Source: Limnochorda pilosa (GTDB lineage: Bacteria; Bacillota; Limnochordia; Limnochordales; Limnochordaceae). From it: a stretch of 64,000 nt of DNA. The translations under genes were made by a program, and so were the position numbers. Location of the stretch: assembly GCF_001544015.1 (NCBI RefSeq), contig NZ_AP014924.1, positions 2,418,001 through 2,482,000 on the forward strand, in the 5' to 3' direction. Positions 4,459-63,065 of this stretch are shown in pieces. Within the stretch, counting starts at the first letter, position 1. The number at the start of each line of letters is the position of its first letter. Below the pieces are notes generated by a model. That model was not told the origin of the DNA and did not search any database. It saw nothing but the letters and a program-made list of their open reading frames with translations.

Positions 4459-4767
4459 TCAGGGAATGTCGAGCTCGAGCATGGGCACGTGCTGTTGGGC
4501 ACCGTAGAGGTCAGCGCTATCGAACTCATCGGAAGCCAAGGGCTTGAGAAAGGATGCCTTCGCCGCCAGACACAGGTCCACGAACCAGACGCCCAGGACG
4601 CTACTGGGCGGTACACGGTAGAGAGCCGCGATGTTCTCCCGCGTCAGGACCCCGGACGTCTTCGCGCGTTCGAAGGCAGCCTCGTCGGTGAAGATCACAT
4701 CGACGGTGGTGATGAACGGTGACGCATTCTTGCTACGGATGATCCGGGCCAGTTCCGTGAGTTTCAC
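4459..4767 (-). CDS. DUF4387 family protein
   Basis: A 102-residue protein (MKLTELARIIRSKNASPF, then TVDVIFTDEAAFERAK, IAALYRVPP, GVWFVDLCLAAKASF) that I recognise as DUF4387. This small domain is usually encoded next to, or fused to, DUF1446/AtuA-like proteins, and here it follows that gene by 37 bases. Its biochemical role is unknown; the constant pairing suggests a subunit of the same complex. Confidence 0.8.
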   Translation of the reverse strand: MKLTELARIIRSKNASPFITTVDVIFTDEAAFERAKTSGVLTRENIAALYRVPPSSVLGVWFVDLCLAAKASFLKPLASDEFDSADLYGAQQHVPMLELDIP

Positions 4768-4804
4768 ACTGAGCCACTCCTCATAGCAGTTTGCAGCACT
4801 CGTC

Positions 4805-7221: not shown

Positions 7222-7239
7222 GCTCCCTCAGCCCCTCCT

Positions 7240-43262: not shown

Positions 43263-43277
43263 ACGGGGGGTCCGCAC

Positions 43278-44759: not shown

Positions 44760-44785
44760 CGGCGCCCTGGGCCCGGCCTCCCGTC

Positions 44786-45745
44786 GTGCGGCCGGCGCCC
44801 GCGTTCACGGAACCGGACCCGCGAAGGAGTTGGCGCACGATCCTCAGCAGAGAAGCCCTCGACTGGCTCGCCCGGGCGACCGGCTGCGCCCCTGGATCCA
44901 TCGAGACCGCCCGCATGAAGGGATCCACGTCCTCTTCGCTCTTCCTTGTCCGGTGCCCGGGCGGGACCGAGTCCCGGCGCTTCGTGCTGCGGGTGCTCGA
45001 CAACCGGGCCTGGCTCGCGCAGGAGCCCGACCTGGCCGATCACGAGGCGGCCGCCCTGGAGGAGGCGCGAAGGGCGGGTCTGAGGGCGCCGCGCCTGGTC
45101 GCCTACGCTTCGGACGAGGTCGGCTTCGGGGCCCCCGTGGTGCTGATGACCTTCCTCGAGGGGCGCATCGAGCTCCGGCCTGCGGACATGCGGGCCTGGC
45201 TCGACGGCCTGGCCCGCGAGCTGGCCTCGATCCACCGGCGCCCCGCACCTGCCTTTCCCTGGCGCTACCGCACCTGGACGGACCCGGCCGCGCTCGCCCC
45301 GCCCGCGTGGACGGCGATCCCTCACACGTGGGAGCGGGCCATCGAGCTTGTGCTGGGGGCGGAGCCCGACGCCCCACCGGTCTTCCTCCACCGGGACTAC
45401 CATTCCACGAACGTTCTGTGGCACGGGGATGCGGTGAGCGGAGTCGTCGACTGGATCAACGCCTGCCAGGGCCCAGCGGGGGTCGACGTCGCGCACTGCC
45501 GGACCAACCTGGCGCTGATGCACGGGCCCGACGTGGCCGAGCGGTTCCTCGCCGCCTACCTCGAGGTCGCGGAGGGGTTCGCCTACGACCCCTACTGGGA
45601 CCTGGACTCCCTGCTCGGCATGGGCTTGCCGCAACCCGCCTTCTACTCGCCCTGGGGAACGTTCGGGCTGGGTCCCATACCGCCCGAGGTGCTGCGACGG
45701 CGGGCCGATGCGCACCTCACGCGGGTGATGGCTCCGCCCGCCTAG
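44786..45745 (+). CDS. Aminoglycoside-phosphotransferase-fold small-molecule kinase
   Basis: 319 residues from a GTG. APH/choline-kinase fold: nucleotide-loop side SSLFLVRCPGG and FVLRVLDNRAWL, the catalytic loop FLHRDYHSTNVLWHGDAVSG with HxD...N, and the following metal-binding VVDWINACQGPAGVDVAHCR. Members phosphorylate antibiotics, homoserine, choline or sugars. It follows the aldehyde dehydrogenase by 26 bases. Its 3' end overlaps the convergent GatZ-like gene by 29 bases. Confidence 0.85.
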   Translation: MRPAPAFTEPDPRRSWRTILSREALDWLARATGCAPGSIETARMKGSTSSSLFLVRCPGGTESRRFVLRVLDNRAWLAQEPDLADHEAAALEEARRAGLRAPRLVAYASDEVGFGAPVVLMTFLEGRIELRPADMRAWLDGLARELASIHRRPAPAFPWRYRTWTDPAALAPPAWTAIPHTWERAIELVLGAEPDAPPVFLHRDYHSTNVLWHGDAVSGVVDWINACQGPAGVDVAHCRTNLALMHGPDVAERFLAAYLEVAEGFAYDPYWDLDSLLGMGLPQPAFYSPWGTFGLGPIPPEVLRRRADAHLTRVMAPPA

Positions 45746-47063
45746 CGCCCGTCCCCACGGCCGCCGCATATCCCCGCAACACGTCACGAATCCGGTCCAG
45801 GACCAGCTCCTCCGGGTCGTTGCGCAGGACGCCCTCCCGCACCCGCTCGTACTGGCGCGGCAGGAACTGGCTCAGCAGGGGCAAGGGGATCCCCGCCTCG
45901 CGCAGGTTGCCAAGGAGGCGCTGGACGGCCTCCTGCACCGAAGGGACGGGCCAGTAGTAGCGACACCGGTCGGAGAGGCCGTACTTCCGCTTGAGACGGA
46001 GCTCGTGCTCGTCCCCGCTGTAGTAGGCGCTCCAGTGACGGGGATCGGCGAGCATCGCCTCTTCGAGGGCGGCTTCGACGTTGGAGCGCCGTGCTCGGCC
46101 GTCCGTCCCCAGCACTTCGGACTCCAGGGCGTTCAGGGCGAAGAGCGCTTCCCGCTTGGCGAAGGTGAGGGCCGGCCCCACCTTCAGGATGGCGATGCCG
46201 TCTTCCGCCATCTGGCGAAGCCGCCCCGGCGTCTGGTAGTCGGTGGAGTGCCCTTCGAAGGCCAGCCCCGGATGCTGCGTCAAGGCTCGGGTAAGGCTCG
46301 CCGCGGCGGCCCGATCGTAGGGGTGAACCTGCCACTCGCCGAAGTCCACCCCCGGCTGGACCACCACGGCGATCACCCGTCCCCAGGCGTCGTCCAGGCC
46401 CCGATCGTGAAAGGTCGCCCGCGTCAGCGCGACCGTCTCCTCGAACTCCTCCGGCGTGGTCACCTTGGGCCCCTGGCTCCCGGAGGTCTCGCCGCCGGGC
46501 GGAGGCACGTCGGAGCCGATGACGTAGAGCGGAGGCGCCGACGCCCCCTCCGCCTGGGACCGCTTCCTGAAGGCCGCCTCGGCCGCCTCGCAGAGCTGGG
46601 CGGTCCGTTCGGCCACCACCCGTTTCGAAAGCGCACCGCCTGCCCGTTCCTCCCCCAGGGGCATGCTGGCGTCCAGGTGAATCTTGGTGAAGCCGCAGGC
46701 CACGAAGGCCTCGACGAGGTCGCAGGCATGCCGCATGGCCTCTTCGGCCGCCAGCCGCTGCCATGGGTTGGGGCCGAGGTGATCGCCCCCGAGGATCAGC
46801 CGCTCGGGCGGGAGTCCCATCTCGCGGGCAAGTCCCAGCACGAACTCCACGAACGCCGGGGGCTCCATCCCCGTATACCCGCCGAACTGGTTCACCTGGT
46901 TGGACGTCGCCTCGATCAGCGCGGGGGAGCCATCCTCCACCGCCTGCTTGAGGGCGGCCCGAAGGACGAGGGGGTCTGCGGTACAGACCGAGTAGATGCC
47001 GCGGGGGTCCCTCGTCCCTTGACCCCAAATGACCTGCCTCACGTACGCCGTCGAGGTTTGCAC
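45717..47063 (-). CDS. GatZ/KbaZ-like protein: tagatose-bisphosphate aldolase Z subunit or hexose-6-phosphate 4-epimerase
   Basis: 448 residues. TIM-barrel family COG4573: RGIYSVCTADPLVLRAALKQ, LIEATSNQVNQFGGYTGMEP, LGGDHLGPNPWQRLAAEEAM, KIHLDASMPLG, FEGHSTDYQTP, ILKVGPALTFAKREALFALN, WPVPSVQEAVQRL. In E. coli the Z subunit stabilises the GatY/KbaY aldolase; in thermophiles stand-alone members have been described as fructose/tagatose-6-phosphate 4-epimerases. No GatY/KbaY gene is in this operon, which favours epimerisation here (inference). It is the last gene of the amino-sugar operon. Confidence 0.88.
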   Translation of the reverse strand: MQTSTAYVRQVIWGQGTRDPRGIYSVCTADPLVLRAALKQAVEDGSPALIEATSNQVNQFGGYTGMEPPAFVEFVLGLAREMGLPPERLILGGDHLGPNPWQRLAAEEAMRHACDLVEAFVACGFTKIHLDASMPLGEERAGGALSKRVVAERTAQLCEAAEAAFRKRSQAEGASAPPLYVIGSDVPPPGGETSGSQGPKVTTPEEFEETVALTRATFHDRGLDDAWGRVIAVVVQPGVDFGEWQVHPYDRAAAASLTRALTQHPGLAFEGHSTDYQTPGRLRQMAEDGIAILKVGPALTFAKREALFALNALESEVLGTDGRARRSNVEAALEEAMLADPRHWSAYYSGDEHELRLKRKYGLSDRCRYYWPVPSVQEAVQRLLGNLREAGIPLPLLSQFLPRQYERVREGVLRNDPEELVLDRIRDVLRGYAAAVGTGARRAEPSPA

Positions 47064-47162
47064 GTGCGCACCACTCCTTCGGTGGGCCAGGGCACGCAGG
47101 CCCCGGCACCCACGCTTATCCGGCCAGGCGGATGAACGGAATGCACCGTCCGCCGTCTGACG

Positions 47163-48239
47163 CTACACGCTGCCGTCCCGCCAGGTCTTCACGATGTTGC
47201 CGAAGGCGTTCGGGTCCAGGCCGCGTAGGGTGGCCATCTCGTGGGCCCACTGGTGGAAGGCGCTGAGGGTCACGATGGAGGCCATCAACTCGCTCATCCC
47301 CGAGTGCGTGAAGGCAAGGTCGGCCTCGGCCGGGATGCGGTGGTCTTCCTCGTCCGTCACTGCAACCCAGAGGGCGCCCGCCCGCCGGGCGATCTGGCAG
47401 ACCGCGCGGAGGTGCTCGTGAATCGGACTCGCGTGCGTCCCGAGTGAGATCACGGCAGCGTCCTTCCCGATCATCTCCAGGGGCCCGTGACGGAACTCGA
47501 TGGCCTCGAATCCCTCGGTGTGGATCTTGGTCGTCTCCTTGAGAACGTTGGCCACCTGGTACGCCAGCGCCGAGTGCGGTCCGCTGCCGACCACCGCGAT
47601 GGTGCGCTGCCCGGCCAGTCTCTCTGCGATCTCCCGGCGAGCGGCGGCTTGCTCCTGCACGTGCTGCACCAGGGCGGGGGCAGCCTGCAGCTCCCGTCGG
47701 AGCGCGGCTCGCTTCTCGGGGGCGATCGATTCGCTCTCGCCCGCCCACTCCACCAGGAAAGCGTAGAGAGCCAACGTCTCGGCAACGACGGTCTTCGTCC
47801 CAGGGCCGTACTCCTCGCCTGCCAGAAGCGGGATGGAGGCTTCGGCGAGTCCGGGAAGGGTGCTCTCGGGCCCGTTGGTGACCGCGATCACGGTGGCCCC
47901 TCGCTCCCGGGCGGTCCGGGCGGCCTGGAGCGTCTCGAAGGTCTCACCCGACTGCGACAGGGCGAAGACGAGGGTATCGGGCCCAACACCGCCGCTCCGG
48001 TAGTGCGCGAAGTCCAGCGCGCTGATCGCCACCGCCATCTTTCCCAGCAGCGCGTCGACGGCGTAGGCGCCCGTGATCCCCGCGAAGTACGACGAGCCGC
48101 ACCCGACGAAGACGATGGACCCGTAGCGCCTCGCGCCAACGACGCGCAGCGCCTCCTCGGCTCTGGGCGCCTCCACCAGGCGCCGTGCCACCGCGGCCGT
48201 CTCGGCCATCTCGCGGCCCATGTGGTCTGCCATGCACAT
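47163..48239 (-). CDS. Double-SIS sugar isomerase/deaminase (AgaS/NagB-II/GlmS-isomerase type)
   Basis: 358 residues from ATG 48239 (a second Met follows two codons later). Two SIS domains: first SIVFVGCGSSYFAGITGAYA and VFALSQSGETFETLQAARTA; second IAVVGSGPHSALAYQVANVL, KETTKIHTEGFEAIEFRHGP. The C-terminal HTEGFEAIEFRHGP block is like the GlmS isomerase site, with catalytic Glu/His. No glutaminase domain is present, so it should deaminate/isomerise an amino-sugar 6-phosphate to a ketose 6-phosphate rather than make one. Its start abuts the kinase gene. Confidence 0.88.
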   Translation of the reverse strand: MCMADHMGREMAETAAVARRLVEAPRAEEALRVVGARRYGSIVFVGCGSSYFAGITGAYAVDALLGKMAVAISALDFAHYRSGGVGPDTLVFALSQSGETFETLQAARTARERGATVIAVTNGPESTLPGLAEASIPLLAGEEYGPGTKTVVAETLALYAFLVEWAGESESIAPEKRAALRRELQAAPALVQHVQEQAAARREIAERLAGQRTIAVVGSGPHSALAYQVANVLKETTKIHTEGFEAIEFRHGPLEMIGKDAAVISLGTHASPIHEHLRAVCQIARRAGALWVAVTDEEDHRIPAEADLAFTHSGMSELMASIVTLSAFHQWAHEMATLRGLDPNAFGNIVKTWRDGSV

Positions 48240-49208
48240 CTACCCCCTGTCGGCCAGGAACTGACGGACCTGCTCCCGCGTCGGAAAGGTCCGCTGCGGA
48301 GAGCTGATGTAGAGCGACGCTGCGGCCGCCGCGCACGCCAGGGCGTCCCGATCTGGCCGCCCTTCGGCCCAAGCCGCCAGGTAGCCAGCATTGAAGGTGT
48401 CGCCGGCGCCAACCGTGTCGATCACCTGCACCGGGAAGCTGGGCCCATCGACCACCCCGTCGGCGGTGACGGCGGCGCTTCCACGCGACCCGCGCTTGAC
48501 GATCACCTTCTTGGGGCCGAGGCGGAGGAGCCGGCGGGCAGCCTCGTACCCATCGGCGGTTCCGGCGATCCCGCATGCTTCGGCCTCGTTGGGGAAGAGC
48601 CAGTCGGTCGCTGCGAGGACCTCTCCCATCTCGGCTCGTACGGCATCGGTCCAACCTTCGACCGCATCCCCCGTGTCGAGCGCCGTAACGACGCCTTCGC
48701 TCTGCAGGCGGCGGAAGAGGCGGGCGGTGGGAGTGCCCCGGAAGGCGGGCAGCAGGAAGTAGCCGCTGAGGAGGACCAGGTCCACCCGCCTGAGCTCGGG
48801 CCAGAGCGGCTCCAGGTCGTCGGGGTGGAAGTCCTCCAGACAGCCCAGGTGGTTGACGAAGGACCGCTCCCCGTCGTTCCGCACGAGCGTCACCGAGAGA
48901 CCGGTCTCCCCCCGGGTCTGAATCAACCCTGTCTCGGGCAGCCCCACCCCACGCACGGCGGCTTGCACCAGCTCGCCTTCCGCGTCACGGCCGATGGGCC
49001 CCACGAGCAGTGCGGGGTGCCCGAGCGAGCCCAGCGCGATGGCCGTATAGCCCGCCGATCCTGCCGCTCGCCGCTCGCGCCGCGATGCGATCCGCTCCTC
49101 ACCCCACCGGGGCATCGCCGGGAGCGGGCCGAGGACCAGGTCGACCTCCAGGTTGCCGATGACGGCGATGCGTCGAGGTGCGGCCGCTCGCGCCCATCCC
49201 GCGCTCAT
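48240..49208 (-). CDS. PfkB-family carbohydrate kinase
   Basis: 322 residues from the ATG at 49208 that overlaps the M20 gene stop (ATGA). PfkB signatures: IAVIGNLEVDLVLGPLPAMP at the start, AGSAGYTAIALGSLGHPALL, and the C-terminal anion-hole/catalytic-base motif DTVGAGDTFNAGYLAAWAEG. In the context of an ABC importer, which delivers unphosphorylated sugar, it is the only kinase of the operon and probably makes the 6-phosphate used by the SIS enzyme. A tagatose-6-phosphate kinase is the alternative. Confidence 0.9.
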   Translation of the reverse strand: MSAGWARAAAPRRIAVIGNLEVDLVLGPLPAMPRWGEERIASRRERRAAGSAGYTAIALGSLGHPALLVGPIGRDAEGELVQAAVRGVGLPETGLIQTRGETGLSVTLVRNDGERSFVNHLGCLEDFHPDDLEPLWPELRRVDLVLLSGYFLLPAFRGTPTARLFRRLQSEGVVTALDTGDAVEGWTDAVRAEMGEVLAATDWLFPNEAEACGIAGTADGYEAARRLLRLGPKKVIVKRGSRGSAAVTADGVVDGPSFPVQVIDTVGAGDTFNAGYLAAWAEGRPDRDALACAAAAASLYISSPQRTFPTREQVRQFLADRG

Positions 49209-50488
49209 GCGGTCCACCTGGCGATCAGCTGGGCGACGAACTCGATCGCCTGCAGGTACGCGTCGATCGTGACCGACTCATCGACCGCGTGGGCCTCCAG
49301 GAGGCTGCCCGGACCGTAGATGATCGAGGGCGTCTTGCCGGCGCCCGAGAGGATGCGGGCGTCGCAGCCGGCGGGGAAGCCGCCCAGGGTGCCCTGGCCG
49401 GTCGCACCCCTCAAGGTCTCGGCCGCGGCGACTGCGAAGGGATGATCGGGCTCCAGGGCGGACGGTGGGACGTCGACGTACCACTCGAAGGCCGGCGGGT
49501 GCTCCCTCAGCCAGGGGTCCGCCTGAGCCTCCTGGAGCAAGGCGGCCTCCACCTCCGCCTTCACGCGACCGCCCAGACCGGCCTCGTCCACCTCGCTGGG
49601 GAGGTACTTGACGTCCACCTCGAGGACGCACGCCTGTGGAACGGTGGTAGGGCCGATCCCACCGGCCATCTTGCCCACCGTGATCGTCGGCGCCGGCAGG
49701 TAGGGGTCCACCTTGTGGGCGAGCCACCCGTGCTCCAGCTCGTTCAGGCGCCGCACGAGCCGCATCGCCTTTTCGATGGCGCTGACGCCCCGGCGCCACT
49801 TGGTGGCCGCGTGGCCCGCTTCCCCGGCCACGCGGATGCGGAGCGACAGGACCCCCCGGTGGGCGATGGCCACCGCGCCCTCGGTCGGTTCGAAGCAGAT
49901 CGCCCCGTCGGCGGTATAGCCCCGGTCCACACAGGCCAGCGTGCCGTTGCCCCCGCCTTCCTCATCGACGACCCCTTCGATGATCACCTCGCCGCGCGGC
50001 TCGAAGCCCAACTGCCGGAGGATCCGCAGGGCGTGCAGGCTGACGGCCATGCCGCTCTTGGTGTCCGACGTCCCCCGGCCGTAGACGCGCCCGTCGGCCA
50101 CGGTGCCGCTGAAGGGCGGATGACGCCATGCGCTTTCGTCGCCGGGGGGAACCACGTCGATGTGGGTGTTGAGGATGAGGGAGCGGCCGCCCCCACGTCC
50201 CGGCAAGCGCCCCACCACGTTGGGACGGCCCTGGTACGAGTGACCCGGCGTGTAGTCGCGGTAGCCGGCAAGCCGAGCATTGTCGGGCTCGAAGACGTCC
50301 ACGGAGCAGCCGAGGACCTTCATCTGCCCCTCCAGCCAGGCGGTGGCGTTCCCCTCGCGCCCGTCCAGGCCGTGGTCGACGGCCTGAGTGTCGATCCGGA
50401 TCAGCTCCCGCAGGAGGGCAACCGCCTCCTCCCGCGTCTCGGCCACCGCCTGTCGAATCCGATTCTGGTCCACCGTCTTCGCCTCCAT
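49205..50488 (-). CDS. M20-family metallohydrolase (ArgE/DapE-type deacylase)
   Basis: 427 residues. Two-zinc peptidase fold: LNTHIDVVPPGDESAW with the first His-x-Asp, RGTSDTKSGMAVSLHALRIL, catalytic Glu-Glu in VVDEEGGGNGTLACVDRGY, Asp/Glu in CFEPTEGAVAIAHRGVLS. The dimerisation lid is present (GEAGHAATKWRRGVSAIEKA). Members remove acyl groups from N-acyl amino acids and related amines. Here it lies between permeases and kinase, where it could deacetylate an imported N-acetylhexosamine before phosphorylation, a step usually done by amidohydrolases. Confidence 0.88.
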   Translation of the reverse strand: MEAKTVDQNRIRQAVAETREEAVALLRELIRIDTQAVDHGLDGREGNATAWLEGQMKVLGCSVDVFEPDNARLAGYRDYTPGHSYQGRPNVVGRLPGRGGGRSLILNTHIDVVPPGDESAWRHPPFSGTVADGRVYGRGTSDTKSGMAVSLHALRILRQLGFEPRGEVIIEGVVDEEGGGNGTLACVDRGYTADGAICFEPTEGAVAIAHRGVLSLRIRVAGEAGHAATKWRRGVSAIEKAMRLVRRLNELEHGWLAHKVDPYLPAPTITVGKMAGGIGPTTVPQACVLEVDVKYLPSEVDEAGLGGRVKAEVEAALLQEAQADPWLREHPPAFEWYVDVPPSALEPDHPFAVAAAETLRGATGQGTLGGFPAGCDARILSGAGKTPSIIYGPGSLLEAHAVDESVTIDAYLQAIEFVAQLIARWTA

Positions 50489-50500
50489 CGCCGATCGGGC

Positions 50501-51328
50501 TCAGCCCTTGACGGCGCCCATGGTAAGCCCGCGCACCAGGTAGCGCTGCGTCGCCAGCGCGAAGATGACCACCGGCAGGATGGTCAGGATGCTGAAGGCC
50601 GACATCTCAGCCCAGGCCAGGTTCTTGTCGGTGATGAAGCCTGCGATGCTGACAGGCAGCGTCTTCGTCCCCACCGAGGTGAGGATGACCGCGAAGAGGA
50701 ACTCGTTCCACGACATGATGAAGGCGAAGACGGCTGTCGATGCGAGCCCGGGCAGGGTGAGCGGCATGGTGACCCGGAGGAAGGTCTGCAAGGTGCTCGC
50801 GCCGTCGACGAAGGCGGCGTTCTCCAGGTCGATGGGGAGCTCCTGATAGTACCCCAGCATCTGCCAGACGACGAAGGAGAGGTTGAACCCCGTGTAGGTG
50901 ATGATCAGCGCCCACCGGGTGTCGAGGAGCCCGAAGGTCTTCATGAGCAGGAAGTAGGGGATGGCGGTGGAGATGGCCGGGTACATGCGGGTGATGAGGA
51001 ACCAGCCCGCCAGGATCCCGTTCAGCCGCAGGGGCAGCCGCATGCGAGCCAGGCTGTAGGCAGCCATCGCCCCCAGGAGCGTCGAGGCCAGCGTTGCCGC
51101 GGTGGCCACGATCAGGCTGTTGAGCGCCGGCTGCAGGAAGTTGGGTGACGTCAGAAGGTCGCGGTAGTGCTCGAAGGTGACCGCGCTGGGGATGAGCACC
51201 GGCGGGTCCTGGAAGAGCTCGTCCGGCATCTTGATCGAGGTGACGAAGAGCCACGCGAGCGGCACCAGGACCGCCATCAACGCCAGCCCGATCAGGAGGA
51301 TCCGGCCTGTGGCCATCACGCGCCTCAT
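50501..51328 (-). CDS. ABC sugar transporter permease (MalG type)
   Basis: 275 residues, possibly starting at the second Met (MATGRILLIG). Six membrane segments; EAA loop DLENAAFVDGASTLQTFLRV, and C-terminal GFITDKNLAWAEMSAFSILT, LVRGLTMGAVKG. It lies 12 bases before the M20 gene and 52 bases after the MalF-type gene. Confidence 0.92.
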   Translation of the reverse strand: MRRVMATGRILLIGLALMAVLVPLAWLFVTSIKMPDELFQDPPVLIPSAVTFEHYRDLLTSPNFLQPALNSLIVATAATLASTLLGAMAAYSLARMRLPLRLNGILAGWFLITRMYPAISTAIPYFLLMKTFGLLDTRWALIITYTGFNLSFVVWQMLGYYQELPIDLENAAFVDGASTLQTFLRVTMPLTLPGLASTAVFAFIMSWNEFLFAVILTSVGTKTLPVSIAGFITDKNLAWAEMSAFSILTILPVVIFALATQRYLVRGLTMGAVKG

Positions 51329-51380
51329 GACGCCTCAACTCCCATACGAGTGGTTGCCTCTCTCCACGCCGCGGAGCCCA

Positions 51381-52304
51381 TCATCCCTGGGCACCCTCGC
51401 CCCGCCGGCGCAGGAGGAGCCAACTGAACGCCAGGATGAACGCCAGGTAGACCCAGGCTCCGGCCGAGGCATACCCGACCTCGAAGAACTTCAGCCCCTG
51501 CTTGTAAATGAACAGGGTGGTGACCTCCGTCGACAGTCCCGGGCCGCCCTGCGTCAGCACGTAGATGAGGTCGAAGACCTTGGCCGCGTCCATGGCGCGC
51601 AGCGCCACCGCAATGGCCACCATGGGCCTGAGGAGCGGCCACGTGACGAACCGGAAGATCTGCCACCGGGTGGCGCCGTCGATCTGGGCCACCTCGTAGG
51701 GTTCCTGGGGAACGGCCTGGAGGGCGGCCACCAGCACCAGGACGAAGAAGGGCGTCCACTCCCAGACGTCTGACAGCACCACCGCGATCTTGGCATAGGT
51801 GGGCGAAGCAAGCCATGGGATGCTCGATCCGCCGAAGAACCCGATGACGTGATTGACCAGTCCATACTTGGTGTGCCACAGCATCCGCCAGAGCACGCCC
51901 ACCACCACCGGAGGCAGCATCATCGGGACCAAGAGGATCGGGCGGACGATCTTCATCGGTCGCGATTGGCCCGAGGTGAGCAGGGCGATGCCAAAGCCGA
52001 TGAGAAACTCAAGGCCCACGGAAGCCGTGATGAAAAGGAGGGTGTTTCCGAGGGACGTGAGGAAGACCTCATCCTGCAGAACCTGAAGGTAGTTCCCCAG
52101 CCCCAGCCACGTCCGGGGCAGCCACAGGCTCAGGAGGTTCCACCGGGTCAGGCTGACGCCCAGGGCGTAGAGCAAGGGATAGAGCGAGGTCGCCACCAGG
52201 ACCAGGACGGCGGGCAGGAGGAAGATCCAGAGGACGAGCGCCCTCCGGCTCTTCCAACCCCGGCCTTCGCCTACGGACAGACTGCTGACAGCCACCCGAA
52301 CCAC
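51381..52304 (-). CDS. ABC sugar transporter permease (MalF type)
   Basis: 307 residues with six to seven membrane segments, beginning VLWIFLLPAVLVLVATSLYP. EAA loop EPYEVAQIDGATRWQIFRFV. C-terminal segment VGYASAGAWVYLAFILAFSW. It follows the binding-protein gene after a strong hairpin. No ATPase gene is present. Confidence 0.92.
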   Translation of the reverse strand: MVRVAVSSLSVGEGRGWKSRRALVLWIFLLPAVLVLVATSLYPLLYALGVSLTRWNLLSLWLPRTWLGLGNYLQVLQDEVFLTSLGNTLLFITASVGLEFLIGFGIALLTSGQSRPMKIVRPILLVPMMLPPVVVGVLWRMLWHTKYGLVNHVIGFFGGSSIPWLASPTYAKIAVVLSDVWEWTPFFVLVLVAALQAVPQEPYEVAQIDGATRWQIFRFVTWPLLRPMVAIAVALRAMDAAKVFDLIYVLTQGGPGLSTEVTTLFIYKQGLKFFEVGYASAGAWVYLAFILAFSWLLLRRRGEGAQG

Positions 52305-52320
52305 CTCCGCGTGGGGACCG

Positions 52321-52357
52321 GAGGGGGTGACGGGGCCGAAGGCCCCGCCACCCCTCC
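52321..52357 (-). terminator. Strong hairpin between binding-protein and permease genes
   Basis: GGGGTG-A-CGGGGCC pairs with GGCCCCG-C-CACCCC around a GAA loop (about 14 pairs with one mismatch), 24 bases after the binding-protein stop. No U-tract. Likely stabilises or partly terminates, raising binding-protein levels relative to permeases. Confidence 0.6.
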
Positions 52358-52380
52358 CGAGCTGCCTCGACGCTCCCGAC

Positions 52381-53640
52381 TCAGTCGCCCCGCCAGGGGA
52401 ACTCGGGCTTCAGCTGCTTGATCAGGTTGGTCCAGGAGGTGGCGATGTTGTGGACGGCCGTCTCGGAAGAGACCTGGCCAGCCATGGCCCGAGAGAGCTG
52501 GACGATGGCATCCTCGTACATCTGCGGCCACTGGGGAATGCGGGGGAACGCCCAGGCCGTGTCCAGGGCCGCCGGGATGCCGGCGAGCTCCGGCTTCTCT
52601 TGCACGAGGACGTCCCAGGCTGAGAAGCGGACCGGGTTCACCCCGAGCTCCCGCTGGTAGCGCAGCTGGTTCTCGGTGCTGGTCATGAACTGGATGAACG
52701 CCCAGGCCACGTCCTTGTTGCGGGAGGTCTTGGGGATCGAGAGGTGCCAGGTGCTCATCTCGCCCGAGCCGCCGGGGACCGGCGCGATGGCGAACTTCCC
52801 GACCACCGCCGACTGCTCCGGGTTGCCCGCCATGCCGAGGGTGAGGCTTGGCCACGTCTCGGCCATGGCCGCGTCGCCGTTGACGAACGCGATGGCCACG
52901 TCAGGGTTGTCGTACGAGAGGATGCCCTGCGGCGCGTAGGCGGTCAGCTCCTTGAGCTGCTCGAGGGCCTCGACGCCCTTCGCATTGTCGAACTGAACCT
53001 CCCAGTCGCTGGAGAGCATGACACCCCCCAGGGCGTGATACCGGGAGATCCAGTACTTGAGGAGCTGCTCCCGGACCCCGGCGAAGACCGCTCCGTCCTG
53101 CTCGGACGAGTCCAGGGTCCGGGCGATCTTTGCGTACTCCTCGTAGGTGGTCGGAGGCTCGATCCCCTTCTCCTCGAAGAGGTCCGTGCGGTAGAAGATC
53201 GCCACGGCATCAGCCGCGTGCGGGATCCCGAAGATGGTGCCGTCGGCCGCCTGTCCTGCGTTGGCCGCCACCGTCGGGATGAAGTCGTCGTAGGGGAAGC
53301 CGTCGCGTTCGATCAGCTCGTTCAGCGGCTCGAAGTACGGCCCCATCTCGCCATCCCACATTCCCTCGACGGAGACGACGTCGTAGTCCGTCGACCCGGT
53401 GGCGAGGGCGATGCCCATCTTCTCGTGCAGGCTCGTCCACGGTGCGTCGACGACGTTCACCTTCGCACCGGTGAGTCGCTCGAAGTCTGCCGCCGCAAGC
53501 CGCGCGGACGCGTCGTAGGTGCCCGACGACATGAAGAGCACCGTGATCTCCCGCCCCGCGAACTCGTCCGAGGCGAGCGCCTGCGACGCGGAGAAAGCCG
53601 CGACAACCAGAACCATCAAGGCAAGCCACGTACGCCTCAC
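52381..53640 (-). CDS. ABC sugar transporter, extracellular solute-binding protein (family 1)
   Basis: 419 residues. The signal peptide MRRTWLALMVLVVAAFSASQ ends ALA-SDEF with no lipobox Cys. Mature part: REITVLFMSSGTYDASARLA, YDVVSVEGMWDGEMGPYFEP, GTIFGIPHAADAVAIFYRTD, WAFIQFMTSTENQLRYQREL. It is the first structural gene after the GntR-type regulator, as expected for an importer of amino sugars or oligosaccharides; the ligand is not readable. Confidence 0.9.
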   Translation of the reverse strand: MRRTWLALMVLVVAAFSASQALASDEFAGREITVLFMSSGTYDASARLAAADFERLTGAKVNVVDAPWTSLHEKMGIALATGSTDYDVVSVEGMWDGEMGPYFEPLNELIERDGFPYDDFIPTVAANAGQAADGTIFGIPHAADAVAIFYRTDLFEEKGIEPPTTYEEYAKIARTLDSSEQDGAVFAGVREQLLKYWISRYHALGGVMLSSDWEVQFDNAKGVEALEQLKELTAYAPQGILSYDNPDVAIAFVNGDAAMAETWPSLTLGMAGNPEQSAVVGKFAIAPVPGGSGEMSTWHLSIPKTSRNKDVAWAFIQFMTSTENQLRYQRELGVNPVRFSAWDVLVQEKPELAGIPAALDTAWAFPRIPQWPQMYEDAIVQLSRAMAGQVSSETAVHNIATSWTNLIKQLKPEFPWRGD

Positions 53641-53728
53641 TGTTCTTTCCCCCTATCCCCTCTCGTGCTTGGCCAGTCACATCACGCTGCCCAGCCGGTA
53701 GTCGCCCCCGGTCTCATCCCCCTTCGAG

Positions 53729-54490
53729 TCACATGATCTGGGCCGGTTGATCGGGGCCGGGAACCCTCAGCTCCACGTAGTACCGGCAACGGTCTCCTCG
53801 GAAGACGCCCTTGGTCCACTCCACGGGCCGACCTTGCCGATCGAGCATGAGCCGCTCGATGAGGAGCGCCGGTGCCCCTGCCCGAACCCCCAGGAGGCTG
53901 GCCTCGAAGTCGTCGACGACGACGGGCTCGTACGCCTCCTGCGCAACGCCGAGTTCGACGCCGTACTCGTCGGAGAGCACCGAGTAAAGCTGCCGTTCGT
54001 TGAAATCGTAGCGATCGAGCCTCGGAAACCGCTCGGCAGGGAGAATGGTTCGTTCGATCAGGAGCGGTTCGTCGTCGCCCAGTCTCAGGCGCACCAAGTG
54101 GTAGACCCGGCTTCCCGCATCGAGTTGAAGGATCCTTTCCTGCTTGCCCGTCGCGGCCGAGACCGTGAGCTCGATGACGCGAACACCCGGGACGATGTTT
54201 CGCCGCCTGAGGCTTTCGCTGAAGCTATAGAAGGCGTTGATGGTCTGCACGAAGCGGGGCTGATTGACGAAGGTCCCTTTCCCGGGCCGTGAGACCAGGA
54301 GACCATCGCGGACGAGGGAGGCCACCGCCTGCCGCACCGTGGCACGGCTGACAGCCAGGCGTTCGGACAGCTCCCTCTCGGAAGGGATCTTGGACCCCGG
54401 AGCCCATTCCTCGGTGTCGATGAACTCCTTGATCAGGAGGCGGAGCTGGTGGTAGAGAGGCACGGGCGAATCAGCCTTCAACCGGTCCAC
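53729..54490 (-). CDS. GntR-family (HutC/NagR-type) regulator
   Basis: 253 residues from a GTG at 54490, chosen because sequence beyond it is not protein-like and a palindrome lies just upstream. N-terminal winged helix: SPVPLYHQLRLLIKEFIDTE, GSKIPSERELSERLAVSRAT, VRQAVASLVRDGLLVSRPGK. C-terminal UTRA domain: RVYHLVRLRLGDDEPLLIER, VVVDDFEASLLGVRAGAPAL, GVFRGDRCRYYVELRVP. This subfamily typically senses phosphorylated amino sugars (as NagR senses GlcNAc-6-phosphate). It should control the downstream operon. Confidence 0.9.
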   Translation of the reverse strand: MDRLKADSPVPLYHQLRLLIKEFIDTEEWAPGSKIPSERELSERLAVSRATVRQAVASLVRDGLLVSRPGKGTFVNQPRFVQTINAFYSFSESLRRRNIVPGVRVIELTVSAATGKQERILQLDAGSRVYHLVRLRLGDDEPLLIERTILPAERFPRLDRYDFNERQLYSVLSDEYGVELGVAQEAYEPVVVDDFEASLLGVRAGAPALLIERLMLDRQGRPVEWTKGVFRGDRCRYYVELRVPGPDQPAQIM

Positions 54491-54516
54491 CTGAACCCAC
54501 CACCTCTGGTCCGGTC

Positions 54517-54528
54517 TGGTATGTACCA
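54517..54528 (-). promoter_or_regulatory. GntR operator candidate
   Basis: TGGTATGTACCA is a perfect 12-base palindrome with the central TG excepted (TGGTA-TG-TACCA), 27 bases upstream of the regulator start, followed by a second half site (CGTACCA at 54532-54538). GntR/HutC sites commonly have GT...AC palindromes. Confidence 0.65.
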
Positions 54529-54640
54529 CACCGTACCAATTCGTGGACCGAGGGCAAGTTCCTGCATGAAACGCGCGGAAAAGGGAGCGTAGGGCATGCG
54601 GGAGGTTCACCCAACCCCGGCCACCCGACCTGGCCTGCAC

Positions 54641-57344: not shown

Positions 57345-58286
57345 TCACTTGACCATCTCTTCGAGCACGAGAGCAGCCGCTCCCAGGATACCGAGCTCGG
57401 ATCCCCACCGCGACAGACTCAGCGAGAGGTTTCGAGAGAAGTGCTCGGGAAGCTCTGCGTTCAGGTGCCGCCAGAGGAGCTGGCGGAACGGTTCACCCCA
57501 GTTGGAGAGGCGCCCCGCCAGGATGATGCGGTCAGGGTTGAGGGTATAGACAAGCCCCCGGAACGCCATGGCGAACGCGCGGGCAGCCTCCTCGATCGTC
57601 GCGCGCGCCCAGGGGTGGTCTCCTTGCGCCGCGTCCCACACGGCCGAGGCGTTCGCGAGACGCTCTTCCCTTCCTTCCTGCGCGAGCCGGGTCTGCGCTG
57701 CTTTGACAATGGCCGTACCCGAGATGAATGCTTCGAGGCACCCTCGGTTGCCGCAACTGCACAGCGGCCCGTCTGGCCAGACTGGCACGTGGCCGAGATG
57801 ACCCGCCAGCCCATCCGCGCCTTCCAGGACCTGGCCCCCCACCACGATCGCACCGCCCACGCCCGTACCCAGGGCGACCACGACGGCGCAGCGCGCCTCG
57901 CGGGCATCGCCCCAAAGGGACTCCGCGTGAGCCATGGCCTTCACGTCGTTATCCACCTTCACCCGAAGGCGCGGATCAGGGATGATCCCCGCCTGGAGGT
58001 CGACACCCGTCCAATCCTTGATGAGCGACGTGGCTCCCACGACCCGGCCGCCCGAGATCGCGCCACCGGATCCCGCGCCAACACCTACAGGAACGAATCC
58101 CTCGCGGGCGGCCCGCGCGAGAAGTTCCCCAGTGAACTCCCGAGCTCTCGCGACCACCGAGCTGCCACCTTCGTGTGCGAGGGTGGGTCGCTCTTCTCGA
58201 TAGAGCAGCCTGCCGGAAGAGGTTACCAGGCCCCCGGCGATCTTCGTTCCGCCGATGTCGATACCGCACGCGACCATGGATTCCAC
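57345..58286 (-). CDS. ROK-family sugar kinase, probably N-acetylmannosamine kinase
   Basis: 313 residues from a GTG with GGGGAGG upstream; ATG 58277 is an alternative. ROK signatures: ATP loop CGIDIGGTKIAGGLVTSSGR, catalytic VDNDVKAMAHAESLWG, GTGVGGAIVVGGQVLEGADG, and the zinc site GHLGHVPVWPDGPLCSCGNR-GCLE. ROK kinases phosphorylate glucose, ManNAc or GlcNAc at C6. With NanE in the same operon, ManNAc to ManNAc-6-phosphate is the best guess. It is the last gene of the operon. Confidence 0.88.
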   Translation of the reverse strand: MESMVACGIDIGGTKIAGGLVTSSGRLLYREERPTLAHEGGSSVVARAREFTGELLARAAREGFVPVGVGAGSGGAISGGRVVGATSLIKDWTGVDLQAGIIPDPRLRVKVDNDVKAMAHAESLWGDAREARCAVVVALGTGVGGAIVVGGQVLEGADGLAGHLGHVPVWPDGPLCSCGNRGCLEAFISGTAIVKAAQTRLAQEGREERLANASAVWDAAQGDHPWARATIEEAARAFAMAFRGLVYTLNPDRIILAGRLSNWGEPFRQLLWRHLNAELPEHFSRNLSLSLSRWGSELGILGAAALVLEEMVK

Positions 58287-58364
58287 CAGTAAACGCCTCC
58301 CCAGGCAGGCTCCCGGACCGCAATAGCAGATCGACTGGACCGCGCCTGGCGCTCCAGGGAACGA

Positions 58365-59231
58365 TCAGTAGAGCTTGTCCAATACGGCCCGAGCCGTCCG
58401 CTCCGTGGCCTCCTGCGCCGCCTGGCCAAGACGCAGGGAGACTCCGGTGTAGAGCAGATCCAGCACATGGATCTGCGCGATCTTCGTTCGCAACGCGCCG
58501 CCCTCCAAGGGGCTCTCGACCGAACTGGTCAGCAAGGTAATGTCTGACACCTTGGTGATGGGGGAACGGGCCGCGCCGGTGATGCAGATCACCGTGGCCC
58601 CGTGGGACTTCGCGATCGACACGGAGTCAACGGTATCCTGGGTGCTTCCGGAATGGCTGATGCCCACGGCAACATCTCCCTTGCGGAGGTTGGCTGCGGA
58701 CATGGCCTGAAGGTGGCTATCGGAGAAGGCGTCACACGACTTCCCGATGCGGAGGAACTTGTACTTGGCGTCCAGGGCCGTGATGCCTGATGCACCCACA
58801 CCGTAAAACTCGACCCGGGGCGCCTCCGTCAGTACATGGATGGCAGCGGCCAGTTGCCCGAGATCCAGGAGGTGAGCGGTATCCTCCAGCACTTGGACGT
58901 TGAAACGGGTGATCTTGTCCACCACGACGTCCATGGGATCCAGCGGCGAGACCGGGCCCTCCACTCCCTGCGACAGCGCGGCATCGGTGGCAAGGGTCAG
59001 CTTGAGCTCCTGATAACCTGAGAACCCCGCTGCATGAGCGAACCGGATCACCGTCGATTCACCGACGCCGCAGGCATCCGCGAGTTCGGTCACGGATAGG
59101 TACACAACCTGCTGGGGCTGCTCGAGGCAGTAGTCTGCCACCTTCTGCTCAGCAGGCGCGAGCGACGCGTACAGACTTCGGATGCGGGCCCGGGCACCTC
59201 CTCGTGGCGAGCGTTCAGGGGCTTGCTGCAT
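58365..59231 (-). CDS. RpiR-family transcriptional regulator
   Basis: 288 residues from the ATG at 59231, with GGAGGAGGGGAAGG upstream. N-terminal HTH_6 domain: IRSLYASLAPAEQKVADYCL, VTELADACGVGESTVIRFAH. C-terminal SIS domain: VEFYGVGASGITALDAKYKF, AVGISHSGSTQDTVDSVSIA, which binds phosphosugars. It is similar in type to NanR/GlvR regulators. It lies within the operon between NanE and the kinase, so it likely senses ManNAc-6-phosphate or GlcNAc-6-phosphate. Confidence 0.9.
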   Translation of the reverse strand: MQQAPERSPRGGARARIRSLYASLAPAEQKVADYCLEQPQQVVYLSVTELADACGVGESTVIRFAHAAGFSGYQELKLTLATDAALSQGVEGPVSPLDPMDVVVDKITRFNVQVLEDTAHLLDLGQLAAAIHVLTEAPRVEFYGVGASGITALDAKYKFLRIGKSCDAFSDSHLQAMSAANLRKGDVAVGISHSGSTQDTVDSVSIAKSHGATVICITGAARSPITKVSDITLLTSSVESPLEGGALRTKIAQIHVLDLLYTGVSLRLGQAAQEATERTARAVLDKLY

Positions 59232-59272
59232 GCCTTCCCCTCCTCCTGCCGCGAACTGCAGCCGGGAGCACC

Positions 59273-59989
59273 TCAACACGGGGTGGATGCTTTCCTCGGC
59301 CTCACGGCTTCTCGATAACGCTGGGTGAGCCAGGTGATGTCGGTAATCGCCGTCCCTATCACAAGGGCACGTGCGCCCCAGTCCAGGACACGCCCCGCCA
59401 TCTCCGGCGAATGCACTCGGCCCTCCACCACTAGCGGGACCGAGATGCTGCCCGCGATGCTCTCGACCAAGCGCTGGTTGGGTACATCCCAATCCAGCGT
59501 CTCCTCGGTGTATCCGCAGAGGGTGGTGGCGACCAGGTCCGCCCCCAGCTCCGCCGCCCGCTCTGCTTCCCCGAAGGTCGCGATGTCGGCCATCACCGGG
59601 AGGCGCAGCTCCCGGTGAATACGGTCGATCAAGGTTGCTACCGTCTCGCCCCCGGGCCGCGGCCTTGCCGTCGCGTCGATGGCAATGACGTCTGCGCCCG
59701 CTTCTGCCACCTCGCGTGCGTGTGCGAAGGTCGGGGTGATGTAGACATCATAACCTGCCGTGGTCTTCTTGTAGATACCGATGATCGGGACGGTCACGCG
59801 CGTTCGGATGGCCGCCACGTTCCGCGGCAAGTTGGCCCGGATCCCGGAGGCTCCGCCCCGTTCGGCCGCGGCAGCCATGGCGGCCAGCACCTCGGGCGCG
59901 TCCAGCGGCGTACCCTCATCGGCCTGACACGAGACGATCAAGCCTCCGAGAAGGCGGGCAATGACGTCTGATTCCGTCCACGCGTGCAT
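59273..59989 (-). CDS. nanE: N-acetylmannosamine-6-phosphate 2-epimerase
   Basis: 238 residues from the ATG at 59989. NanE converts ManNAc-6-phosphate to GlcNAc-6-phosphate in sialic-acid breakdown. Recognisable blocks: GGLIVSCQADEGTPLDAPEV at the start, ASGIRANLPRNVAAIR, VPIIGIYKKTTAGYDVYITP, IAIDATARPRPGGE, VMADIATFGEAERAAELGAD, VATTLCGYTEET, LVVEGRVHSPEMAGRVLDWG. The catalytic Lys (YKK) and the TIM-barrel phosphate site are intact. Best functional anchor of this operon. Confidence 0.93.
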   Translation of the reverse strand: MHAWTESDVIARLLGGLIVSCQADEGTPLDAPEVLAAMAAAAERGGASGIRANLPRNVAAIRTRVTVPIIGIYKKTTAGYDVYITPTFAHAREVAEAGADVIAIDATARPRPGGETVATLIDRIHRELRLPVMADIATFGEAERAAELGADLVATTLCGYTEETLDWDVPNQRLVESIAGSISVPLVVEGRVHSPEMAGRVLDWGARALVIGTAITDITWLTQRYREAVRPRKASTPC

Positions 59990-60056
59990 CGCAGACCACC
60001 GTCCCTCTGTGTTCTGGCGAGGCTCTCCAACGATCCGATCGTCGTTGCTGCTGCAC

Positions 60057-61064
60057 CTACAACAGCGACACCCGCTGCCCCGAGCGCGCCGACTGGATGA
60101 TCGCCAGCGCGAGGCGGACCGCGTCCACCGAGTCGCGGGGATCGACCGGTACCTCCTCACCCGAGAGCACCGCCGACGCGAAGGCTTCGAGTTCCGCCCG
60201 CAAGTCGCCCATCCGCACGTTCCCAACCGCCGGTTGGTGGAAGTTGTCGGGGAACTCGATACCGGTGCCGGAGACCAGAGCGAGCCCGCTGTACCCTCCG
60301 CTCAGGTAACTGGCTCCCTCTGTTCCCACCACCTCCATCTGGTAGTCGAGCTTGGTGGGAGTCCCGGCTGGAAGGACCCAGGAGCTCTCCACGGCAGCCA
60401 CAGCGCCCGTATCGAAGCGAATGAGGGCGAAGACGCTGTCTTCGGTTCCCAGCGGAGCCAGCAGCTTCTCCACCGACTCGGCGTAGACGGAGACTGGCTT
60501 GTGCGGCCGGAGCATCCAGAGGATGATGTCCAGATCGTGCACGGTCACATGGAGCGCGAGCGGAAGCTCCCCTCGGTACCGGGCGGGCCCCTCGGTGCGG
60601 GGGCTGTTCCGGCGCGCGTAGAGGTGGATCACGTCTCCAAGCTGCCCACTGGCGACGGCATCACGCATTTGCCGGTACTTCGGATCGAAACGCAGCAGGT
60701 GCCCCACCATGAGCTTGACGCCGGCCCTGGAAGCTGCCGAGACGATCGCTTCCGAATCCTCGACCGTCGCGGCGATGGGCTTCTCCAGGAAGATCTGCTT
60801 CCCAGCCTCGGCCGCAGCCAGGACGGGGGCGAGGTGGTCCAGATCGCGCACGCAGATGCTGACCGCATCGATCTCGGGATCGGCAAGCATCTCGCGGTAG
60901 TCCGCGTACGCCTGAACGCCGAACCGTGCACTCATCGCCTGTCGCCGTGCGTCATCGATCTCCGCGATGGCCGCCAAGCGCGTGCTGCGCAACTGGTGCA
61001 GCACCTCCGCGTGCAGCTGCCCCATCCACCCCATGCCGATGATACCGAACCTGAGCGTCTCCAC
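60057..61064 (-). CDS. Gfo/Idh/MocA-family oxidoreductase
   Basis: 335 residues from a GTG at 61064 with GAGGAG 9 bases upstream. N-terminal Rossmann domain: LRFGIIGMGWMGQLHAEVLH; the EKP motif IFLEKPIAATVEDSEAIVSA; C-terminal sugar-binding domain with VHDLDIILWMLRP (catalytic H-x-x-D-type motif). It acts on a sugar with bound NAD(P). Related family members in sialic-acid loci convert 2,7-anhydro-Neu5Ac to Neu5Ac (NanOx/YjhC type), a possible role here. Confidence 0.87.
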   Translation of the reverse strand: METLRFGIIGMGWMGQLHAEVLHQLRSTRLAAIAEIDDARRQAMSARFGVQAYADYREMLADPEIDAVSICVRDLDHLAPVLAAAEAGKQIFLEKPIAATVEDSEAIVSAASRAGVKLMVGHLLRFDPKYRQMRDAVASGQLGDVIHLYARRNSPRTEGPARYRGELPLALHVTVHDLDIILWMLRPHKPVSVYAESVEKLLAPLGTEDSVFALIRFDTGAVAAVESSWVLPAGTPTKLDYQMEVVGTEGASYLSGGYSGLALVSGTGIEFPDNFHQPAVGNVRMGDLRAELEAFASAVLSGEEVPVDPRDSVDAVRLALAIIQSARSGQRVSLL

Positions 61065-61191
61065 AGCCCCACACTCCTCTGCTTTCACGATGCCTTTCAC
61101 TGGTGCGAAAACCCCAACCATCCCGAGAGCGCCGCACGGGGCCGGCGCCCGTTCGACCACGGGTGAAGAATCCGGCCCGTTACAGCGCCAC

Positions 61192-62948: not shown

Positions 62949-63026
62949 GGTCTCATACCACCGTCCACCGGCCGGGAGCTGGTCGCCTCCAGCCGGATAG
63001 TGTTTCGCGCACCACGTTCCTTGCGG

Positions 63027-63057
63027 CGCGCTCCCCCCAGCGAACAGAGGGAGCGCG
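63027..63057 (-). terminator. Strong hairpin between binding-protein and permease genes
   Basis: CGCGCTCCC pairs perfectly with GGGAGCGCG around a 13-base loop, 9 bases after the binding-protein stop. No U-tract. Same position as the hairpins at 9389 and 52321. Confidence 0.6.
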
Positions 63058-63065
63058 TCGTCTCA

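Follow-up and report, generated by a model that had tools for sequence, protein, structure and literature searches.

An eight-gene locus of Limnochorda pilosa combines an ABC sugar importer with an M20 metallo-hydrolase, a PfkB-family kinase, a double-SIS enzyme and a lone GatZ-like protein, and we tentatively propose, with a confidence slightly short of even and with a separate, lower estimate for the M20 step, that it encodes a catabolic route from an amino sugar to fructose 6-phosphate. The sequence analyzed (the window) comprises 64,000 nt of L. pilosa (NZ_AP014924.1, positions 2,418,001-2,482,000), and all feature coordinates are window positions. Genome-wide searches covered the complete L. 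pilosa genome of 3.8 Mb in one contig.

The substrates and the order of steps that we infer are as follows. Under the control of a GntR/UTRA repressor, the ABC importer would take up a hexosamine that bears an N-acyl group and is most likely galacto-configured, namely GalNAc or a related N-acyl-galactosamine. Acting on the free sugar, the M20 enzyme would strip off the acyl group; the PfkB kinase would then phosphorylate the free hexosamine at O6, and the double-SIS enzyme would isomerize/deaminate galactosamine 6-phosphate to tagatose 6-phosphate and ammonia. Because the lone GatZ would then invert C4 via retro-aldol/aldol chemistry and thereby yield fructose 6-phosphate, neither a tagatose-6-phosphate kinase nor GatY would be needed. 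The initial annotation had reached the same overall interpretation, which stood with respect to the amino-sugar theme, the kinase, the SIS residues, the lone GatZ and the absence of GatY, but not with respect to the novelty of a lone GatZ epimerase.

Organization of the locus

All eight genes are intact, tightly spaced and encoded on the minus strand in the order gntR-SBP-permease-permease-M20-PfkB-SIS-GatZ. The first four encode a GntR/UTRA (HutC-type) transcriptional regulator (53729..54550, exact start uncertain; PF00392 and PF07702), an ABC sugar-binding protein (SBP; 52381..53640; PF01547), a MalF-like permease 1 (51381..52304; PF00528) and a MalG-like permease 2 (50501..51328; PF00528). 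Each family match far exceeds its Pfam cut-off (GatZ 570 bits, SIS 130, PfkB 158, M20 117, UTRA 133, SBP 124), and together with strand and spacing these matches confirm the gene set described at the outset. From permease 2 to SIS the genes nearly abut, with 12 nt between permease 2 and M20, a 13-nt overlap of M20 and PfkB and 0 nt between PfkB and SIS. It is from the 12-nt and overlapping junctions with the permease and kinase genes that we take the M20 enzyme to belong to the same route as the kinase. The gap between SIS and GatZ is 99 nt, a separation that counts against the proposed route, and a terminator-like site is absent there. We infer that the eight genes form one co-transcribed operon; a promoter/terminator scan and an inverted-repeat search gave nothing above chance.

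The GntR protein is 37-42% identical to GntR proteins of SIS-containing clusters in other genomes (L013, L022, L087, L123). Permease 1 shares 38% identity with a permease adjoining an M20 relative (L150), permease 2 likewise 38% with permeases in L087, L089 and L150, and the nearest solved structures of the binding protein are trehalose/maltose-type sugar binders, a generic likeness only. Among the loci examined, the full eight-gene combination was found in one genome only. Plasmids were searched for close orthologs of the SIS and M20 proteins, with only matches below ~40% identity, and none of the few plasmid regions inspected contained an M20-SIS-GatZ cluster.

The GatZ-like protein and the absence of GatY

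The GatZ/KbaZ-like protein (45717..47063, minus strand) is the sole PF08013 protein in the genome and matches the family over its full length (570 bits, residues 15-436). It keeps the proposed metal-ligand and catalytic residues Cys20, Glu44, Asp87, His88, His257 and Lys279; Glu171 is conservatively replaced by Asp, the same replacement occurs in 9 of the 99 rows of the alignment, with the window protein itself accounting for three of the nine. E. coli GatZ and KbaZ convert fructose 6-phosphate to tagatose 6-phosphate and are reported as tagatose/fructose-6-phosphate epimerases, and tagatose production in E. coli was restored when gatZ or kbaZ was expressed together with a phosphatase, but not by gatY, kbaY or fbaA (PMC11907403). 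With its epimerase site intact, the window protein is very probably a tagatose-6-phosphate 4-epimerase. The earlier suggestion of a lone GatZ-like 4-epimerase is in line with the retained residues and the lack of GatY, but such an activity is not new and has already been reported (PMC11907403). With the lone GatZ epimerases of E. coli (GatZ/KbaZ), Agrobacterium and Sinorhizobium described in that study the window protein shares PF08013, the active-site residues and independence from a GatY partner; it differs from them in the Asp at the Glu171 ligand position, and its gene is tied to a predicted amino-sugar deaminase, theirs to a tagatose/galactitol route.

GatY/KbaY was found neither in the operon nor, by a PF01116 search, in the whole genome, so that its absence, first noted for the locus, holds genome-wide. 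The search gave a single class II aldolase, which by its score (387 bits as Fba versus 241 for the best GatY model, below cut-off) and its neighborhood (its gene adjoins a phosphofructokinase gene) is the glycolytic Fba. A GatY hidden elsewhere in the genome was therefore rejected. Clusters of kinase, SIS and lone GatZ without GatY recur in Chloroflexota, Acidobacteriota, Bacillota and Rhizobium; SIS, PfkB and GatZ occur together in L048, L070 and L123. The arrangement as such is not new, and most steps of the route have known precedents.

The PfkB kinase and the double-SIS enzyme

In the kinase tree, the PfkB-family protein (48240..49217, minus strand; PF00294), our proposed hexosamine 6-kinase, falls into the clade of Sinorhizobium meliloti SM_b21217 with support of 92/95 when the L087 protein is included and 88/81 without it, a moderate support at identities of 36-39% to clade members (36% to SM_b21217). 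It stands apart from RbsK, FruK, PfkB and the tagatose-kinase-like proteins of GatZ-only loci. SM_b21217 was inferred from mutant fitness to be a glucosamine kinase (PMC11378808), and Smb21217, Smb21218, Smb21373 and Smb21374 make up a predicted galactosamine route of S. meliloti (PMC4961836). The L. pilosa protein is probably a hexosamine kinase, as had been suggested for the deacetylated sugar; its grouping is in keeping with phosphorylation of the free hexosamine after the acyl group has been removed. With SM_b21217-type kinases inferred to use free glucosamine, deacylation, phosphorylation, deamination and epimerization would follow one another in a coherent order.

The double-SIS protein (47163..48239, minus strand; PF01380 twice) has E235, H251 and K351 as equivalents of GlmS Glu488, His504 and Lys603 (E. 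coli numbering). The C-terminal lysine of GlmS and NagB-II, kept here, is missing from FrlB and AgaS, and the EMQW motif of the deglycases is absent. In the SIS tree, the window and L087 proteins form a small separate clade, not within NagB-II and outside both the AgaS clade and the FrlB/FraB clade (support of the latter 100/99). Curated family models gave 25 bits for AgaS (cut-off 529), 50 for FrlB (cut-off 430) and 91 for NagB-II (cut-off 430), and a fold ranking (VIA-align) gave Z-scores of ~42 to the GlmS isomerase, 31-38 to NagB-II/GlcN6P deaminases and 30-31 to FrlB-type deglycases. An assignment to AgaS was rejected by score and tree placement. The protein is a member of a new small clade that keeps the GlmS/NagB-II catalytic residues, and these residues support the deaminase function named in the initial annotation; hexosamine-6-phosphate deamination is its likely activity. 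A galacto configuration of the sugar is favored over a gluco configuration, though not strongly. It is the GatZ-like protein alone that speaks for it, because the SIS proteins encoded with GatZ in other loci are AgaS-like and not orthologs of the window SIS, whose closest relative (L087, 35% identity) is found in a genome without any GatZ.

The M20 hydrolase

The M20 metallo-hydrolase (49205..50488, minus strand; PF01546), which we propose removes the N-acyl group of the imported amino sugar, belongs by its sequence to the broad ArgE/DapE group (TIGR01910, 272 bits versus a cut-off of 218). Its active site is intact, with the dinuclear metal ligands and the catalytic Glu kept. In M20 enzymes acting on amino-acid carboxylates a role is ascribed to dimerization-domain residues, Asn275/Arg288 of CPG2 with Arg258 in DapE (PMC6271292, PMC4012986); the positions corresponding to the CPG2 pair here are Thr281 and Lys294. 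Genes for the nearest relatives are found in sugar and nucleoside operons, one of them (L150) together with a KDG kinase, a KDPG aldolase, a PLP enzyme and a RidA-like protein. Given the intact metal site, the replaced Asn/Arg pair and these neighborhoods, deacylation of a free amino sugar is a plausible putative function, although we place it somewhat below an even chance. It would be the sole novel step of the route. The activities established to date for M20 enzymes are, to our knowledge, on amides of amino acids or peptides. The characterized carbohydrate de-N-acetylases of families CE4, CE9, CE11, CE14 and CE18 and the OngB group include no M20 enzyme (PMC12017989), and OngB was dismissed as a precedent because it is a D-aminoacylase-type amidohydrolase (PMC12017989).

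We speculate that the protein might be the first M20-type carbohydrate de-N-acylase, in a self-contained operon leading from N-acyl-galactosamine to fructose 6-phosphate without NagA/AgaA, LacC or GatY and with a new clade of SIS deaminases; we regard this complete picture as rather doubtful. If true, it would add a carbohydrate de-N-acetylase type beyond the named families and a short GalN(Ac) route entering glycolysis at fructose 6-phosphate without tagatose-6-phosphate kinase or a dedicated tagatose-bisphosphate aldolase. It also bears on the annotation of lone GatZ genes, usually labeled as non-catalytic aldolase subunits, and the compact enzyme set is relevant to tagatose production.

Alternative functions

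The same kinase and deaminase might operate beside an M20 enzyme whose substrate is, for example, a hexosamine bearing an aminoacyl or peptidyl group or an amide of an unrelated kind, as the known substrates of M20 enzymes would suggest; the sugar would then be deacetylated elsewhere, or free galactosamine or glucosamine would be imported. SM_b21217-type modules indeed use unacylated glucosamine without a deacylase (PMC11378808), and the L087 relative lacks an M20 gene in the stretch examined. The placement of the M20 gene between permease and kinase, the replaced CPG2/DapE pair and the sugar and nucleoside operons of its relatives argue in the other direction and leave this explanation somewhat improbable. 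Were the substrate of the gluco series, a case we consider quite unlikely, the SIS enzyme would make fructose 6-phosphate directly from glucosamine 6-phosphate, which is handled by its nearest homologs GlmS and NagB-II, and GatZ would serve another substrate, for example tagatose, or would convert fructose 6-phosphate to tagatose 6-phosphate to some other end. The inferred glucosamine kinase activity of SM_b21217 and the lack of GatZ in the genome of the L087 relative are consistent with this, but GatZ as last gene of the run would receive no substrate from the operon, and Smb21217/21218 are predicted to serve galactosamine too (PMC4961836).

A fructosamine (Amadori) operon like B. subtilis frlBONMD, in which the PfkB kinase gives fructosamine 6-phosphate and a SIS deglycase releases glucose 6-phosphate and an amine, shares its families and type of regulator with the window operon (GntR, SBP, two permeases, PfkB kinase and double-SIS enzyme). 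The closest relative cluster, L087, even has exactly the frl layout, without M20 and GatZ. The extra M20, suited to glycated peptides or N-acyl amino acids, would trim the N-acyl or peptide part, and the extra GatZ would epimerize galactose-derived tagatosamine at C4 to fructosamine compounds, in parallel to FrlC. This is unlikely, however, given a SIS protein outside the FrlB/FraB clade that lacks the EMQW motif, keeps the GlmS lysine and matches B. subtilis FrlB (3eua) far more weakly than GlmS or NagB-II, and given a kinase that groups with the glucosamine kinase and apparently not with FrlD (FrlD model 61 bits versus a cut-off of 247; FrlD forms a long branch in the tree). Highly unlikely is the classical tagatose-bisphosphate route, with PfkB as tagatose-6-phosphate kinase and with GatZ assisting, without catalysis of its own, an aldolase from another locus (Fba or LacD-like). 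Two LacD-like proteins are encoded in the genome besides the class II aldolase, and PfkB, LacD-like aldolase and GatZ do occur together in other GatZ loci (L031, L048). Yet score and neighborhood identify the class II aldolase as Fba of glycolysis, one LacD-like gene lies in a RuBisCO/phosphoribulokinase (Calvin-cycle) cluster, the window kinase is separated from the kinases of LacD-containing loci, and in E. coli it was gatZ or kbaZ, not an aldolase gene, that restored tagatose production (PMC11907403).

Relation to known systems and genome context

The S. meliloti glucosamine/galactosamine module SM_b21216-SM_b21221 (PMC11378808, PMC4961836) resembles the window operon in joining an ABC importer, SIS and a PfkB kinase of the same clade; it has no M20, a SIS of a different clade and no GatZ-type gene in the operon, and its predicted galactosamine use involves further genes elsewhere (Smb21373/21374; PMC4961836). 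A Shinella relative of this module has a ROK regulator where the window operon has GntR. In the E. coli aga/kba GalNAc pathway, too, a GatZ/KbaZ-type protein is combined with a double-SIS enzyme on the way to tagatose 6-phosphate, whereas the window operon has an ABC importer in place of the PTS, a SIS protein other than AgaS, and neither AgaA/NagA nor KbaY. In Rhizobium leguminosarum (L168, CP050081), a GH4-DeoR-kinase-ABC-SIS-GatZ-UgpC cluster unites ABC importer, kinase, SIS and lone GatZ without GatY; it differs in a BadF-type kinase, a GH4 glycosidase and the lack of M20, and its SIS is nearest to those of other GatZ clusters, not to the window SIS. Deacetylation of an amino-sugar derivative before any phosphorylation is known from the OngB route for N-acetyl-glucosaminate in oxidative chitin degradation, which proceeds with its amidohydrolase instead of an M20 enzyme and with later steps via KDG (PMC12017989).

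Pfam and curated family models identified no NagA/AgaA deacetylase among the eight genes. Two NagA proteins above the curated cut-off are encoded elsewhere in the genome, and the absence noted in the initial annotation is therefore local, holding for the operon and not for the genome. One of the two NagA genes adjoins genes for an AgaS-family SIS protein and a ROK kinase; that the genome already has such a cluster counts against the proposed route. A separate ManNAc-type operon adjoins the locus (57345..63959, minus strand) and provides an amino-sugar context; it encodes a ROK kinase, an RpiR regulator, NanE (ManNAc-6-P 2-epimerase), a Gfo/Idh dehydrogenase, two permeases and a binding protein.

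Operon layout and gene content

Eight intact minus-strand genes occupy 45.717 to about 54.55 kb of the window, in the 5'-to-3' order GntR/UTRA regulator, sugar-binding protein, two MalF/MalG-type permeases, M20 metallo-hydrolase, PfkB-family kinase, double-SIS protein and GatZ/KbaZ-like protein, in agreement with the gene content described in the initial annotation. The second permease and M20 genes lie 12 nt apart, the M20 and kinase genes overlap by 13 nt, and the kinase and SIS genes abut (0 nt); SIS and GatZ genes are separated by 99 nt, in which a terminator scan found no terminator-like site. By its layout, the run is a predicted operon. The pathway proposed for it, in which an imported GalNAc-like sugar is deacetylated by the M20 enzyme, phosphorylated by the PfkB kinase, deaminated by the SIS enzyme to tagatose 6-phosphate and converted by GatZ to fructose 6-phosphate, is as a whole the best-supported reading, which we hold tentatively and at slightly less than an even chance. 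The proposed lack of a NagA deacetylase holds locally but not genome-wide, since two NagA proteins are encoded elsewhere. One of these belongs to the genome's other amino-sugar cluster (G000:C1:2182000-2194000), together with an AgaS-family SIS protein, an ABC importer and a kinase of the ROK type.

Kinase and double-SIS enzyme

Maximum-likelihood analysis places the window kinase and its relative from L087, an importer-kinase-SIS-GntR cluster of genome G278, in the clade of the Sinorhizobium meliloti kinase SM_b21217 with support of 92/95 (88/81 without the L087 sequence), apart from the tagatose-kinase-like PfkB proteins of GatZ-only loci, ribokinases, FruK, PfkB and FrlD. Since its record is unannotated, the S. 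meliloti kinase was matched to SM_b21217 through the pSymB gene order (SBP, permease, permease, SIS, kinase, UgpC) rather than through a locus tag. SM_b21217 has been inferred from mutant fitness to be a glucosamine kinase and not an N-acetylglucosamine kinase (PMC11378808). A kinase of this kind would act on the free, unacylated hexosamine, and the operon would therefore need deacylation before phosphorylation. We consider this clade membership the strongest new evidence.

Glu488, His504 and Lys603 are functional residues of E. coli GlmS, and in our alignment their equivalents in the window SIS protein are E235, H251 and K351. The Lys603 equivalent is kept in NagB-II-like proteins and lost in FrlB and AgaS-type proteins. 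Phylogenetically, the window protein and its closest relative, from G278 (35% identity), form a clade of their own (support 100/99), which falls not in the AgaS half of the tree but in the half that holds GlmS, NagB-II and FrlB; among these four the tree gives no firm branching order. The structure model (mean pLDDT 79.9, from a shallow alignment and with a poorly modelled C-terminus) is closest to the GlmS isomerase domain (Z about 42), followed by NagB-II, GlcN6P deaminases and AgaS proteins (Z 31-38), with FrlB-type deglycases last of the ranked groups (Z 30-31). We take the window protein to be a hexosamine-6-phosphate deaminase, with galactosamine 6-phosphate or glucosamine 6-phosphate as predicted substrate. 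The G278 cluster holds the same importer-kinase-SIS-regulator set; neither M20 nor GatZ was found in the 17 kb covered there, a stretch bounded by the end of the contig, and no GatZ occurs anywhere in that genome.

M20 metallo-hydrolase

The M20 protein scores above the ArgE/DapE subfamily cut-off, and its five metal ligands are all present, as is the catalytic glutamate. CPG2 (Asn275/Arg288) and DapE (Arg258) use residues of the dimerisation domain near the substrate (PMC6271292, PMC4012986). The two CPG2 positions are Thr281 and Lys294 in the window protein, and its nearest relatives have His or Lys at the Arg position. These replacements argue against a classical N-acyl-alpha-amino-acid substrate; they are no proof, because carnosinases too have Thr at the Asn position. 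Across 299 genomes of the phylum, most of the best relatives (38-48% identity) belong to sugar/nucleoside operons with LacI regulators, PfkB kinases, a nucleoside hydrolase and sugar/nucleoside importers, some of these genes being assigned from sequence motifs only. In one such locus (L150, positions 1-7671, genome G025), the M20 relative (41%) is flanked on one side by ABC permeases that share 38% identity with the window permeases and on the other by a threonine-synthase-like PLP enzyme, a RidA-like protein, KDG kinase and KDPG aldolase, a gene set that suggests a possible route for an N-acyl amino-sugar acid. Known carbohydrate de-N-acetylase families include no M20 protein (PMC12017989), so that an M20 enzyme deacylating a free sugar would be without precedent. 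A recurrent set of LacI regulator, ribokinase-like PfkB, Bmp-type nucleoside importer, IU nucleoside hydrolase, M20 and GATase1-like protein was also seen in several genomes of the phylum (L143, L144, L145, L146, L147).

GatZ and its occurrence elsewhere

A GatY/KbaY partner, named in the initial annotation as evidence against the proposed pathway, was looked for across the complete single-contig genome and not found: GatZ is the sole PF08013 protein, and the sole class II aldolase is Fba, which adjoins phosphofructokinase and reaches none of the GatY/KbaY cut-offs. Mapped onto the active site proposed for E. coli GatZ (PMC11907403), all residues are kept except Glu171, replaced by Asp as in several other GatZ proteins. 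The same study, which also cites relatives from Agrobacterium and Sinorhizobium, reports that GatZ and KbaZ of E. coli turn fructose 6-phosphate into tagatose 6-phosphate (PMC11907403); the 4-epimerase step is thus not new.

Among 80 loci gathered by GatZ similarity, only a minority have a class II aldolase gene nearby, a lower bound because many lie on short contigs. Relatives from the same class have a GatD-like dehydrogenase and a kinase of the FGGY type beside GatZ. Clusters of SIS, kinase and lone GatZ, several with a GH4 glycosidase, were found in a member of the Chloroflexota (L048), one of the Acidobacteriota (L070), a genome from the phylum of the window itself (L123) and on a Rhizobium leguminosarum plasmid (L168). 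Their SIS proteins fall with or near AgaS. For such clusters, conversion of galactosamine to fructose 6-phosphate would be a natural reading; in S. meliloti, a galactosamine route via Smb21217, Smb21218, Smb21373 and Smb21374 has been predicted (PMC4961836). The kinase-SIS-lone-GatZ core is a recurring arrangement whose parts have published precedent. If the proposed pathway is right, its novelty lies in the M20 step and in a SIS deaminase of a new clade. In three Chloroflexota loci (L031, L045, L048), a GH4 glycosidase, a PfkB kinase and GatZ occur together with a LacD-like aldolase, a class I enzyme of the tagatose-bisphosphate type.

Genomic surroundings

Upstream on the same (minus) strand, 57345-63959 encodes a ROK kinase, an RpiR/SIS regulator, a NanE-type ManNAc-6-phosphate 2-epimerase (266 bits, cut-off 189), a Gfo/Idh/MocA dehydrogenase, two ABC permeases and a binding protein, which together form a putative ManNAc/sialic-acid-type operon with no NagA or NagB of its own in the stretch covered; the region is therefore amino-sugar themed. 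The genome encodes two LacD-like proteins. The gene for one lies within G000:C1:3592000-3606000, between genes for a GlpX-type bisphosphatase and for what we take, by their sequence, to be both RuBisCO subunits (large and small) and phosphoribulokinase; the locus is a Calvin-cycle cluster that includes an aldolase of class I type. Downstream, a convergent plus-strand set (42159-45745) encodes a Zn-alcohol dehydrogenase, an aldehyde dehydrogenase and an APH-family small-molecule phosphotransferase, whose gene shares 29 nt with the 3' end of the GatZ gene.
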